From the NCBI RefSeq assembly GCF_000304355.2, contig NC_018227.2:868001-932000 (forward strand): a stretch of 64,000 bases of DNA. The letters are read 5' to 3'. This stretch comes from Methanoculleus bourgensis MS2. Its GTDB lineage: Archaea; Halobacteriota; Methanomicrobia; Methanomicrobiales; Methanoculleaceae. The translations under genes and the position numbers were made by a program. Below are positions 16,724 to 51,944 of the stretch, one piece after another (position 1 is the first letter of the stretch; each line of letters starts with the position of its first letter). Under the pieces are notes generated by a model that was given only the letters and a program-made list of their open reading frames with translations, was not told the DNA's origin and did not search any database.

Positions 16724-16989
16724 ACTATTGCGCTATTTCATCCTATTTTGCGGGTTCTGGTGCGGATCACCAACCGCTCGCATGAGGCGATAGTGCGCAT
16801 GAACCAACCATCAGGCTACGCTCTCCGGGCAGTGGACCGTGGTGGCTATCACCCGGGGGGTGGGGGCAGGGGAGGAGGCTCGCCCCCTCCCCCCACAGGC
16901 CAGACCCGGGGCACAAACAGAGCCATGTTCCCCACCCGCCAAACCAAGGTGGTTTTCATGGGAAATGTTAGCTGAAATGGTCCACTAGT
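16724..16989 (+). mobile_element. MITE-like composite element carrying the repeat core
   Basis: The left end ACTATTGCGCTATTTCATCC (from 16724) and the right end near 16963-16989 are imperfect inverted repeats of one another (about 16 of 27 positions). Inside lies the core at 16830-16845 followed by G-runs and a CTCGCCCC segment. Total length is about 266 bp, close to the 256-bp composite at 30647-30902. It contains no gene of its own. The right end abuts the next element at 16983. Boundaries are estimates. Confidence 0.5.
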
Positions 16990-17228
16990 GCAACGTGTCA
17001 TCTTATTTTAGAGATTTTTGGAACATGCCGGGATGGGCACTCTGGTCTCACGCGGAAGCACGCGGGAGTGCGCGAAGTTTGGTATAATCCCCTGCAACGC
17101 CCCTTCGCGGCTTCGCGGCTTCGCGTGAGGCAGTGTGGTCATAGAGAGTACCAACGTCTCACGCGGGAGACCGCGAAGAGGGACGGGAGATCTCTAAATT
17201 TAAGATGACAACAAGCACTAGTGCAACG
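16983..17228. mobile_element. MITE-like element with strong terminal inverted repeats
   Basis: CACTAGTGC followed by TGTCATCTTA at the left end is matched in inverted form at the right end; after one gap, TTTAGAGAT also matches, giving arms of about 33 bp. CACTAGTGCAACG (16983-16995) is also present as a direct repeat at 17216-17228, so it could be a target-site duplication or part of a palindromic tip. The interior is full of GCGAAG and CTTCGCG motifs that pair into hairpins. There is no open frame worth calling. Confidence 0.7.
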
Positions 17229-17289
17229 ATTCCCAATATGTAGTACAACCAGAGAGCACCATCGGATCTCGCACACCTGCTCTAGGAGA

Positions 17290-17695
17290 TCATACTCCGG
17301 GGTACGCCCGGGCACGGCTTTCCACCGGGTATCGCCATGACTGCCCCCGCCCTGGGGGCGGGGGAGGAGGCCGGAGGCCGGGCGGGGTGGGGTTTACCGG
17401 CATACCTGGAGAGTGGAGACAGGGGAGGGGGCAGGCCCCCTCCCCGTCAGCCTCTCCCCCAATGGCGATAGCCACCACGGTCCACCGCAGGGGAAGAGCC
17501 CGGGGAAGATCCGGATCCGGCACCAGCCCCATCGGGAGGGGAGACGAGTACGAAATAAGTCTGATAATTTGGAATCGGTGTACTAGTCCGGGTGATTGAA
17601 GGCTCCCCGCTCCACTCCATCGCGCCTCGAATAGGAGAGGGCGGCAGGCTCCCCTGCCCCCTCCCCCGGCACGATATCCACCACGGTCCACGTTT
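17290..17695 (-). repeat. Dispersed repeat modules in minus orientation
   Basis: The module B hairpin lies at 17344-17364 (CCCCCGCCC and GGGCGGGGG arms). Two inverted copies of the 16-base core follow: CCACCACGGTCCACCG at 17472-17487 and CCACCACGGTCCACG at 17679-17693. G/C-rich tracks lie between them. The region fills most of the gap between mobA and the propeller gene and ends about 200 bp before the latter's promoter. Confidence 0.7.
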
Positions 17696-19792: not shown

Positions 19793-19965
19793 AGTAGTGG
19801 AGCATTTCACCGTATCGTGTGGGTCCTGGATGCATGTGAGTGATCGCCACCTCACGCGAAGGGCGCGAAGCCGCGAAGTTCGGTTGCCGGGCGGCATAGT
19901 CCCCTTCGCGTTCTTCGCGGCTTCGCGTGAGATGAGTGTAATAATTAGATACTATAGTCCAGTAC
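19793..19965. mobile_element. MITE-like element with GCGAAG hairpin
   Basis: 173 bp. The left end is GTAGTGGAGCATTTCACC; the right end read in reverse is GTACTGGACTATAGTATC. CTCACGCGAAG (19851-19861) pairs perfectly with CTTCGCGTGAG (19921-19931), and further GCGAAG units extend the hairpin. Its right tip directly abuts a repeat core at 19966-19980. Related elements are at 38332, 51774 and (as a fragment) 45003. Confidence 0.65.
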
Positions 19966-20130
19966 GGTGGACCGTGGTGGCTATCTCCACGGGGGGTGGG
20001 GACCGGGGAGGCGGCACGACCCACGACCCCCTCACCCCGCATGCGTCGAGGATGCGTGGCGATGCCTGGCGGGAGGTGCCGTGCCCGGGAGTGATGGAAC
20101 TGAACCGGGAGCCCCATTGGCCAAACGGGG
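19966..20130 (+). repeat. Degenerate core and G-run repeat
   Basis: GGTGGACCGTGGTGG (19966-19980) is followed by a G-run track and C-rich sequence with a weakened module B. It lies between the 3' ends of the propeller gene and pyrK, so it is in a convergent gap. Confidence 0.55.
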
Positions 20131-30646: not shown

Positions 30647-30902
30647 CATAGTGTACCATTTCACCTTAACGTGAGGGTGCGTTGGAGTGATCGCCGGTCT
30701 TGCGCGTGCTTCCGCGGGAGAATTCATGGGGCAGAGCGAGAGGTTGTATGCATGAAAGCGACCCATTTCCCGGGCGAGCCCCGGGCAGTGGACCGTGGTG
30801 GGAATCGCCCCCGGGGGCACGGTGGAACAGAGTAAGGGGGCCTCCCGGTCGCCACCCCGGGGAGGTCTTCATGGACGATCTTGGATAAAATGTTCCAATA
30901 GA
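30647..30902. mobile_element. MITE-like composite (TIR, module G, repeat core)
   Basis: The left end CATAGTGTACCATTTCACC and the right end, CTATTGGAACATTTTATCC when reversed, match at about 12 of 17 positions. Between them lie the G unit GAATTCATGGGGCAGAGCG (from 30720), also at about 40619 and inverted at 51664-51707, and a repeat core at 30786-30801. It sits between the start of the Rsm22 gene and the end of iorB. The element shows the core packaged inside MITE-like ends. Confidence 0.6.
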
Positions 30903-38188: not shown

Positions 38189-38331
38189 AGATTTTCGTAT
38201 GATTTTTTCGATTATATGGTATCTCTTTTGAGGGGCGTATGGTGCATCGCTGCCGGCAGACATCGGTTCCGGGACGTCATCGACTCCTCGCCGTTTGCCG
38301 CCGCGATCATCGATTCAGACGGCCGCTATAC

Positions 38332-38505
38332 CTACTGGAGCATTTCACCTTATCTTGCGGGTCCTGGTGCAGATCGCCGGTCTCACGCGAAGTCGCGAAG
38401 AGCGCGAAGGGGACTTGCCAATACTCACACCAACCTCTCGCCCTCCCGCGTGCGATTGATGATCCGTCCAGATAACCCGTAAAATTAGATGCAATGGACC
38501 AGTAG
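38332..38505. mobile_element. MITE-like element with 30-bp terminal inverted repeats
   Basis: 174 bp, flanked by inverted ends that begin CTACTGG and end with CGGG on the inside: 38332-38361 and 38476-38505 match at 23 of 30 positions. The interior begins TCCTGGTGCAGATCGCCGG and has CTCACGCGAAG, TCGCGAAG and GCGCGAAGGGG units. It lies between the start of the hydrolase gene and the end of serS. This is the clearest full-length copy of the family in the window. Confidence 0.75.
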
Positions 38506-40493: not shown

Positions 40494-41170
40494 GTAGTGG
40501 ACAATTTCACCTTAACTTGAGGGTGCGTTGGAGTGATCGCCGGTCTCTCGCGTTGAGCGCGAAGGACGCGAAGGGGACTATACCGTCCAGCAACCGAACT
40601 TCACATCCTTCGCGCGGGAGAATTCATGGGGCAGAGCGAGAGGCTGTACGCATGAAAGCGACTATTCCCCAGGCTTGTTCCCATGCAGTGGACCGTGGTG
40701 GTGGCCTGCGCACCTGACGGTGCTCGAACGCCCGGCGACACGGTGGACGTTTATCTCAATTGGGGGAGGAGACCGGCGAGGGAGAAATCCCCCTCCCCGA
40801 AGGTAATAGTTGTAAGTCCTTCTCCAGCAACCCCACCCCTCCCGGCCTCCGGCCTCCTCCCCCGCCCCTCGGGGGCGGGGGCAGTGCGTGGGGATATCCA
40901 GTGGGAAGCCGTGTCTGGAGGGCCGCAGGTGGAGAAGTAGTCCGGACCCGGTTCTTTCCCGGGCTGTCCCCGGACACTGGACCGTTGTGGATAACTGCAA
41001 TTGGGGGGTGGGGACCGGGGAGGAGGCCCGCCCCCTCCCCGTACAAGGCAGCCCCCGCAATCCCCCATCCCGCCCGCCCATTCGGCGCTCCTCCCCGCCC
41101 TGCGAGGATTGGGGGGGCAGTCATCATGATATCTGGTGGGGATCGGTTGATGGGGCTATGCGATTGAGTC
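40494..41170 (+). repeat. Composite repeats: MITE left end, module G, cores, modules A and B
   Basis: The region begins GTAGTGGACAATTTCACC (40494), a MITE left end, with GCGCGAAGG and CTTCGCGCGGGAG units and the G unit near 40619. Cores are at 40686-40701 and 40975-40990, and the second has a G-run track. Module B occurs near 40850-40905 and in a weaker form near 41085-41120. The matching right end of the MITE was not found. The gap is convergent (small membrane protein and minus-strand gene ending at 41338). The rest, to 41337, is featureless. Confidence 0.7.
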
Positions 41171-45002: not shown

Positions 45003-45068
45003 TCTCACGTGAAACCGCGAAGACCGTGCGGTTACTCCCCTTCGCGAACTTCGCGTCTTCGCGTGAGG
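45003..45068. repeat. GCGAAG hairpin fragment of the MITE family
   Basis: GTCTCACGTG...CCGCGAAG and CTTCGCG...CTTCGCGTGAG arms match the interior of the MITE-like elements near 17.1 and 19.9 kb. No terminal inverted ends are visible. It lies between the repressor gene and the end of the methylthiotransferase gene. Confidence 0.5.
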
Positions 45069-45080
45069 TGCCGATCCGCC

Positions 45081-46427
45081 TCACACCCGCAGATGAGGAT
45101 GGCTCGATGCACCCTGCACAAGTTCGCCGATGACGTAATGCCGCCGGTTCCTGGTGATCACCGCCCGTCCCGAGAACCCGAGCGGGAGATCCTCTTTGAT
45201 GACGACGTTGAGGTAACAGGGGTTGCGGCAGACGGTCGAACCGGGCGCGTTCTTCTCGGTCGCGACGATCGAAGTCTCCCGACCCATCCAGCGCTCGTTG
45301 TAGCGGTCGTAGATCCGGTTCGCCTCTGCAAGCAGCGCCCGGGACCGGTCTTTCCGTATCCGTTCGGGGAGGTCTTTTAAGGCAGCGGCGGGCGTGCCGG
45401 GCCGCCGGGAGTAGCGGGTGATATTCACCTTCACAAACGCCGCACGCCGCAGGAGGTCGAGCGTCTGCCGGAACTCCTCGTCCGTCTCCCCGGGAAACCC
45501 GGTGATGAAGTCGGACGATATCATCATATCCGGGTAGCGTTCCCGGAACGCATCGACGATTCGAATGACATCGGCCGCACGGTAACCGCGCTGCATCCGC
45601 TCAAGGACGGCGTCTGAGCCTGACTGGACAGGGAGGTGGAGGAACCGGAACATCTTCTCGCTTGCGTAGGCATCGATGAGCGGGTCAAGGATCCTGAGTA
45701 CCGGGGCCGGATGCATCATCCCCAACCGGACGGCGAAACGCCCCGGGATCTCCGTGATCGCCTGCAGGAGGTCGGGGAGCGCCTCCCCCCGGTCGAGCCC
45801 CCAGGCTGCCACGTCCTGCCCGGTCAGCTGGATCTCAAAGGCCCCTGACCGGACGAGGCGCCGGACGGCATCGAGGATCTCTTCGGGCGGCGCGCTCTTG
45901 AGCCTTCCTCGTGCGAGCCGGGTGATGCAGTAACTGCACCGGCCGACGCATCCGCTCGCCACCTGGACCACGCCGATTGCCCCCGCACCGGGGCTGCCGA
46001 CGCCGCTGGCGCGCTCATGGATCTCGTCGGGGTGGATGACGTGGGCGGTGCAGACCGAGTTGATCAACTCCCTCTGGACAAGCGGCATACACCCGGTCAC
46101 GTAGAGGTCCCGGTCGGCGAACGCAGCCAGGCGCCGGAGCATCTTCCTCTCGGTTGCCCCGATCACCGTGCAGGTGTTGATGATCACGGCGTCCGCCTCA
46201 TCAGGCCCGGTCAGCCTGCAGCCGAGACCTTCCAGTATCGCCTCCAGCCTCCGGGCGTCGGCATGGTTGTAGGTGCAGCCGTAACTCTCGATGTAGACCT
46301 TCTTCCCTCGCAGATCTTCTATGGTGATATCAGATGTCCCCCCTGCGGCCGGGCCGCCGGCGGTGCACAACCCCCTCTCGACCGGAGGGGGTTCCCCCGG
46401 CTTTGGGCTGTTTTTCTGTCCGGGCAC
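45081..46427 (-). CDS. tRNA threonylcarbamoyladenosine methylthiotransferase (archaeal MtaB/CDKAL1 type)
   Basis: 448 aa radical SAM enzyme that adds a methylthio group to t6A37. The N-terminal UPF0004 domain has three cysteines in SYGCTYNHA, NTCTV and TGCMP. The radical SAM cluster is CVGRCSYC. A C-terminal TRAM-like domain follows (SGRAVITRNRRHY). The start GTG 46427 (GTG CCC GGA) seems leaderless: only 37 bp separate it from the divergent nadX ATG and no ribosome site is visible. Alternative starts within are possible. Confidence 0.92.
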   Translation of the reverse strand: MPGQKNSPKPGEPPPVERGLCTAGGPAAGGTSDITIEDLRGKKVYIESYGCTYNHADARRLEAILEGLGCRLTGPDEADAVIINTCTVIGATERKMLRRLAAFADRDLYVTGCMPLVQRELINSVCTAHVIHPDEIHERASGVGSPGAGAIGVVQVASGCVGRCSYCITRLARGRLKSAPPEEILDAVRRLVRSGAFEIQLTGQDVAAWGLDRGEALPDLLQAITEIPGRFAVRLGMMHPAPVLRILDPLIDAYASEKMFRFLHLPVQSGSDAVLERMQRGYRAADVIRIVDAFRERYPDMMISSDFITGFPGETDEEFRQTLDLLRRAAFVKVNITRYSRRPGTPAAALKDLPERIRKDRSRALLAEANRIYDRYNERWMGRETSIVATEKNAPGSTVCRNPCYLNVVIKEDLPLGFSGRAVITRNRRHYVIGELVQGASSHPHLRV

Positions 46428-51773: not shown

Positions 51774-51944
51774 CTACTGGACCGTTTCACCTTATGTTGC
51801 GGGTCCTGATGCGGGGCGAGCGATCGCCACCTCGCGCGAAGAACGCGAAGGGGACTCTGCCGCCCAGCAACCGAACTTCGCGGCTTCGCGCCCTTCGCGT
51901 GAGATGGTATTGCATGGACAATATTAGATGAAATGATACACTAC
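51774..51944. mobile_element. MITE-like element with GCGAAG hairpin
   Basis: 171 bp. The left end CTACTGGACCGTTTCACC and the right end (GTAGTGTATCATTTCATC when reversed) match at about 18 of 26 positions. The interior has CTCGCGCGAAG, ACGCGAAGGGG and CTTCGCGGCTTCGCG pairs. It resembles the elements at 19793 and 38332. The remainder of the gap to 52088 is featureless. Confidence 0.65.

Follow-up and report, generated by a model that had tools for sequence, protein, structure and literature searches.

A probable fusion of two gene-less inverted-repeat elements, with loss of part of a PAS-sensor gene, in Methanoculleus bourgensis MS2

The window analyzed here, a stretch of 64,000 nucleotides (G000:C1:868001-932000) from the genome of Methanoculleus bourgensis MS2 (G000; 2,789,774 bp, one contig), contains at positions 38332-38505 a short segment bounded by inverted repeats. 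An earlier note, made from the sequence alone, had taken this segment for a single miniature inverted-repeat element (MITE) without a gene of its own, which raises the question of what the segment is and how it came to lie there. The terminal inverted repeats were confirmed (31 nt, 77% complementary), as was the absence of a gene. The comparisons presented below make it likely that the segment is a fusion of two left ends, accompanied by gene loss, and that it derives from a MITE family recently amplified in one Methanoculleus lineage.

The family to which the segment belongs, referred to as family A, is a gene-less short transposon (MITE) that has reached a copy number of about a hundred in the Methanoculleus genome analyzed here. 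Allowing up to one mismatch, 176 TGGASCATTTCAYCTWA ends were found in G000 (pattern TAGTGGASCATTTCAYCTWA, 90 forward and 86 reverse) and none with the reversed control, a result far beyond chance. A genome search with the flagged element recovered 84 matching places. Of the 231 other genomes searched within the class, 13 also have family-A ends, 1-4 each, and all but one of the 13 are congeneric; among named records, the exact end pattern is restricted to Ca. Methanoculleus thermohydrogenotrophicum and one Methanomicrobiales MAG. Three matches were obtained in the viral contigs searched for these ends, none with a paired end or a hairpin nearby, and were taken as chance, and Rfam at gathering threshold retrieved only one tRNA from the window. 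Copy statistics were derived from 68 paired copies in loci around matches, after one overlapping double count had been taken out. These copies are mostly 150-300 bp long and have no transposase gene inside, and 64 of them pair a left (L) with a right (R) end. The other four are LL or RR, at 476993, 906335 (the flagged copy), 1027459 and 1961843, and in all four the flanking 4-mers are unequal. Seven copies at scattered sites share 98-100% identity, indicating that the amplification of family A is recent.

Among the 27 solitary copies, 18 carry the same 4-mer on both flanks, against a mean of 5.9 after shuffling (p about 5e-5), 24 have TA in both flanks, and the commonest 4-mer is CTAG. TA as the entire target duplication was considered and dropped after comparing the non-CTAG cases: ten of the 18 identical 4-mers are CTAC, GTAG, CTAT or ATAG, and thus the duplication comprises 4 bp, xTAy. 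Element-free counterparts were recovered for two copies. The copy at 1095308 stands as CTAC-element-CTAC in G000, where G009 has a single CTAC within an intact reading frame, and the gene that harbors the copy at 2129223 is uninterrupted in G021, G034 and G023, with 81-84% identity over the junction. Orthologous empty sites are thus at hand for these two copies, the flagged locus showing a deletion instead. Together with the target duplications, they uphold the earlier proposal of a mobile family, and support the classification of family A as a non-autonomous, multicopy, inverted-repeat element with target duplications. It is a genuine MITE family with recent activity and of an ordinary kind.

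The copy at G000:2129223-2129391 provides 57 codons, in frame and stop-free, to a protein with UvrD-helicase and PD-(D/E)XK domains (L204:1813-5400 = G000:C1:2126312-2129899). The 57 residues sit between the helicase and nuclease parts of a protein of 1195 aa in G000, as opposed to 1143 aa for the insert-free orthologue of G021. A general in-frame coding role of family A was rejected, homology support being restricted to this copy among the 68.

In the flagged copy, the element proper comprises positions 38336-38501, and the 4-mers on either side belong to the target (Table 1). A PAS-sensor gene spans this locus in G027, G005 and G033. In G027 it continues beyond the homologue of the 72-bp remnant retained by G000, and in G005 and G033 its stop codon lies within AAGTAGTCG; in G000 the sequence resumes after the element at GTAGTCGTTTCC, and about 300 bp of the gene have been replaced by the element. 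The CTAC (G027) and GTAG (G005, G033) of the relatives' intact gene are separate sites about 300 bp apart. Over about 80 bp, the left half is 88-91% identical to the L-ends of many copies, and the right half has its blastn matches mainly in the L-ends of other copies, reversed (71-83%). An origin of the flagged copy from one undamaged MITE, with ends and duplication later altered by mutation, agrees with the presence of an end on either side and of TA in each flanking 4-mer, but it is highly improbable, given that the relatives' gene has CTAC and GTAG at different places, that both ends are left-type and that the gene tail, expected after simple insertion, is missing. The distance between the two 4-mers in relatives and the left-type nature of both ends argue for two insertions with loss of the intervening DNA, and the simplest account of these alignments is that the flagged copy is a deletion chimera of two family-A elements. 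In place of the single intact element of the earlier note there is thus a two-left-end chimera at deletion endpoints. A point against this account is that the front part of the PAS gene is also missing in G000, so that the locus has undergone other deletions too.

Table 1. Features of the flagged locus and other copies of the window (positions within the window).
Feature	Position	Strand	Remarks
PAS-sensor gene remnant, 72 bp (FRDVIDSSPFAAAIIDSDGRYTY)	38264..38335	+	Ends in CTAC; 72/72 identical to G027; also in G005, G033
Left target 4-mer CTAC	38332..38335	.	From sequence; CTAC also inside intact PAS gene of G027
Chimera, left half: L end of subfamily A1, TGGAGCATTTCACCTTATCTTGCGGGTCCTGGTGCAGATCGCC	38336..38418	+	Boundary of halves approximate
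Sole remaining GCGAAG arm of interior hairpin (TCTCACGCGAAGTCGCGAAGAGCGCGAAGGGGACT)	38381..38416	+	From sequence; CTTCGCG partner arm absent
Chimera, right half: L end of subfamily A2, inverse orientation	38419..38501	-	Boundary approximate; end type LL
Right target 4-mer GTAG, at former stop codon of PAS gene	38502..38505	.	AAGTAGTCGTTTCCTGGCGG here in G005, G033
Family-A copy, long subfamily A2, 256 bp	16729..16984	+	Flanks CTAT/CTAG
Family-C MITE, ends TGCAACGTGTCATCTTATTTTAGAGAT / TGCTTGTTGTCATCTTAAATTT	16989..17217	+	Joined to A2 copy via one CTAG
Family-D MITE, ends TGCAACGATTCCCAATA / TACACCGATTCCAAATTA	17222..17582	+	Next array unit; CTAG both sides
Family-A copy, two hairpin arms	19798..19961	+	Flanks GTAG/GTAC; adjoins family-D end at 19793
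Family-A copy, long subfamily	30652..30897	+	Duplication ATAG/ATAG
Family-A copy, truncated; left end and hairpin kept, right end lost	40498..40615	+	87% over query 1-118
Family-A remnant, degenerate, with hairpin	45003..45098	-	blastn match
Family-A copy, intact	51778..51940	+	Duplication CTAC/CTAC; hairpin z -3.1

The course of events proposed would begin with a trans-acting transposase that recognises the TGGASCATTTCAYCTWA ends and excises or copies an element of 160-300 bp. Insertion would occur at a CTAG-like site through a 4-bp staggered joint, with duplication of xTAy. The xTAy then present at both borders could receive later insertions, giving rise to mixed arrays whose units share one 4-mer. 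For the PAS-sensor gene we infer that family A inserted twice, once at CTAC and once at GTAG with about 300 bp between them, and that the intervening DNA was then lost. This loss may have come about through recombination of one copy with the other or through the action of a transposase on ends from two copies. The outcome would be a single chimera bounded by a left end on either side, and in this sense the flagged copy illustrates how MITEs may fuse with each other and delete genes.

Among the related copies named in the earlier note, those at 19793-19965, 51774-51944, 40494 and 45003 were recovered by blastn (E 5e-13 to 1e-7), whereas the segment at 16983-17228 proved to be a MITE of family C, with ends that match the IS630-type element at G000:1857286. 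It forms part of a mixed array, A2-CTAG-C-CTAG-D (16729-17582), whose family-D unit has ends like those of the IS630-type element L069 of G021. In such arrays, units of families A, B, C and D are intermixed and adjoin via one shared 4-mer. Adjacent family-A pairs are arranged head-to-tail in 21 of 23 cases (15 of 17 when each dimer type is counted once, p 0.002), with 46 to 98% identity between the units of a pair. Since CTAG is palindromic, insertions at this site are expected equally in both orientations; the bias may reflect either guidance of insertion by the neighbour's end or loss of inverted pairs. A CRISPR-like array, made of short direct repeats and unique spacers, was discarded, the units being about 105-300 bp long and joined by 4 bp, with no spacers.

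The long interior hairpin described in the earlier note is present in intact copies (z -3.34 and -3.10 against shuffles), but the flagged copy, with three GCGAAG units and no CTTCGCG, keeps one arm and folds no better than its shuffles (z -0.82). Nor can the hairpin be considered a family trait, as the module also exists on its own in further genomes and as a part of different MITEs. In congeneric species, a family-A query matches mostly the element interior, and the hairpin seed CACGCGAAGNNCGCGAAG, found 119 times in G000, occurs 30, 38 and 39 times in G003, G011 and G030, where family-A ends are absent. Also, the hairpin is found inside an unrelated type of MITE that has perfect duplications of 8 bp and ends resembling GGCTTTGTTGAA (L102, L108 and L111, in other Methanoculleus species). 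The matching autonomous element of this GGCTYTGTTGAA-ended type in G000 is L163 (1010 bp, duplication CAAGCATC), and a short G000 copy of the same type, L046, lacks the hairpin. These occurrences would be expected if the amplified unit were the hairpin, in the manner of REP/BIME sequences, and the inverted ends mere passengers. We consider this quite improbable, as the precise 4-bp duplications of G000 lie at the inverted ends and not at the hairpin, 7 of the 68 copies have no hairpin and 10 have a single arm, and the family-A copies of G001 (L130, L139) do without it. The occurrence of hairpins without family-A ends, and of backbones without hairpin, indicates that hairpin and mobile backbone can be separated from each other.

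Mobility of the hairpin at its own borders was likewise rejected: no empty site was found at the three TIR-less hairpin sites checked, and the TIR-less hairpin L105 occupies the same position in several species, which marks it as old. The GCGAAG hairpins of G003, G006 and G030 occur in pairs about 107 bp apart (e.g. G003:C1:599281 and 599388). Separately, an interior segment, GTGGACCGTGGTGGCTATC, lies near a G-rich hairpin and is common to A2 copies, D copies and the 8-bp type (window 16800-16850, 17470-17490, 19965-19985 and 40690-40710; also L046). A tentative reading, which we regard as rather doubtful, is that the period-9 GCGAAG hairpin spreads independently as a module, either by invading MITEs of unrelated transposases (families A and C, of the 4-bp CTAG kind, and the 8-bp GGCTYTGTTGAA type) or by being incorporated into them time and again, and confers something shared on them. 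If so, the benefit could be, for example, that it protects the ends, terminates read-through or acts as a signal for higher copy number.

The transposase was expected by the earlier note to lie outside the window, and this agrees with our results; none with family-A ends was found in G000 among the IS630, DDE_Tnp_1, DDE_5 and DDE_Tnp_1_2 genes, and no family-A end pairs at IS spacing occur among the matches listed in 22 relatives. MITEs usually have an autonomous partner with matching ends, although classification as a MITE does not depend on one. Of the checks that the note had proposed, the search for empty sites in relatives thus succeeded for two other copies, but that for a transposase with the same ends did not. 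The IS630-type elements of G000 have ends of family B (L051, L052) or family C (L053), and one with D-like ends is present in G021; these IS630-type ends are those of the sister MITE families B, C and D. None of these elements is thus one with family-A ends, and neither is L163, with its GGCTCTGTTGAA ends and 8-bp duplication. The transposases of L051 (G000:570435-571341), L052 (620228-621134) and L053 (1857392-1858322) are encoded in two overlapping frames joined at a run of A, an arrangement suggestive of programmed frameshifting.

Family A could itself be a true IS630-family MITE, moved by the transposase of the G000:1857286 group (family C) or by that of a near relation since lost. The matter is subordinate to the fusion account and not a rival of it, and the chances appear to us even. 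The preference for CTAG as target, the joint arrays with units of B, C and D, families with ends matching those of IS630-type elements, and the TIR core TCAYCTWATNTT common to families A and C (15/22 vs MITE C, p about 0.001) are consistent with it. The TIR similarity to family C is weak, however, extending to one end of the family-C IS (13/22, p about 0.01) but not to the opposite end (8/22), and a full-length element with family-A ends was not found. Moreover, characterised IS630 elements duplicate 2 bp, TA (PMC2170065), as opposed to 4 bp here, so that IS630 membership of family A is not claimed and its partner stays unproven; the partner transposase is possibly IS630-like.

Archaeal MITEs have been described as little studied (PMC10969869), and our literature search found no paper in which Methanoculleus is named together with miniature inverted-repeat elements. 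What deserves attention is the hairpin module common to different MITEs, together with the head-to-tail arrays. The latter constitute a natural test of why short mobile elements line up in this orientation, and the reason for the recurrence of one hairpin in MITEs of different transposases is a testable question.

Compared with known systems, family A resembles prokaryotic MITEs (PMC10969869) in being short and gene-less, with TIRs, target duplications, many copies and empty sites, and differs from them in its mixed head-to-tail arrays sharing a 4-mer and in a hairpin held in common with an unrelated MITE family. With the IS630/Tc1-mariner elements and their MITEs (ISY100, PMC2170065) it shares the CTAG preference, the TA target core and, locally, a similar TIR core, and it departs from them in its xTAy duplication and in that a same-ended partner gene was not found. 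The IS630 preference for CTAG is credited to Tenzen and Ohtsubo (1991) in the passage of PMC2170065 that cites their work. Like the Rickettsia palindromic elements (PMC10969869), the copy at 2129223 encodes residues of a host protein, although one homology-supported in-frame case in 68 does not amount to a general habit. Finally, the GCGAAG module of other Methanoculleus recalls REP/BIME palindromes (PMC2817692) as a high-copy hairpin, and is distinguished from them by its period-9 arms and its location within MITEs.
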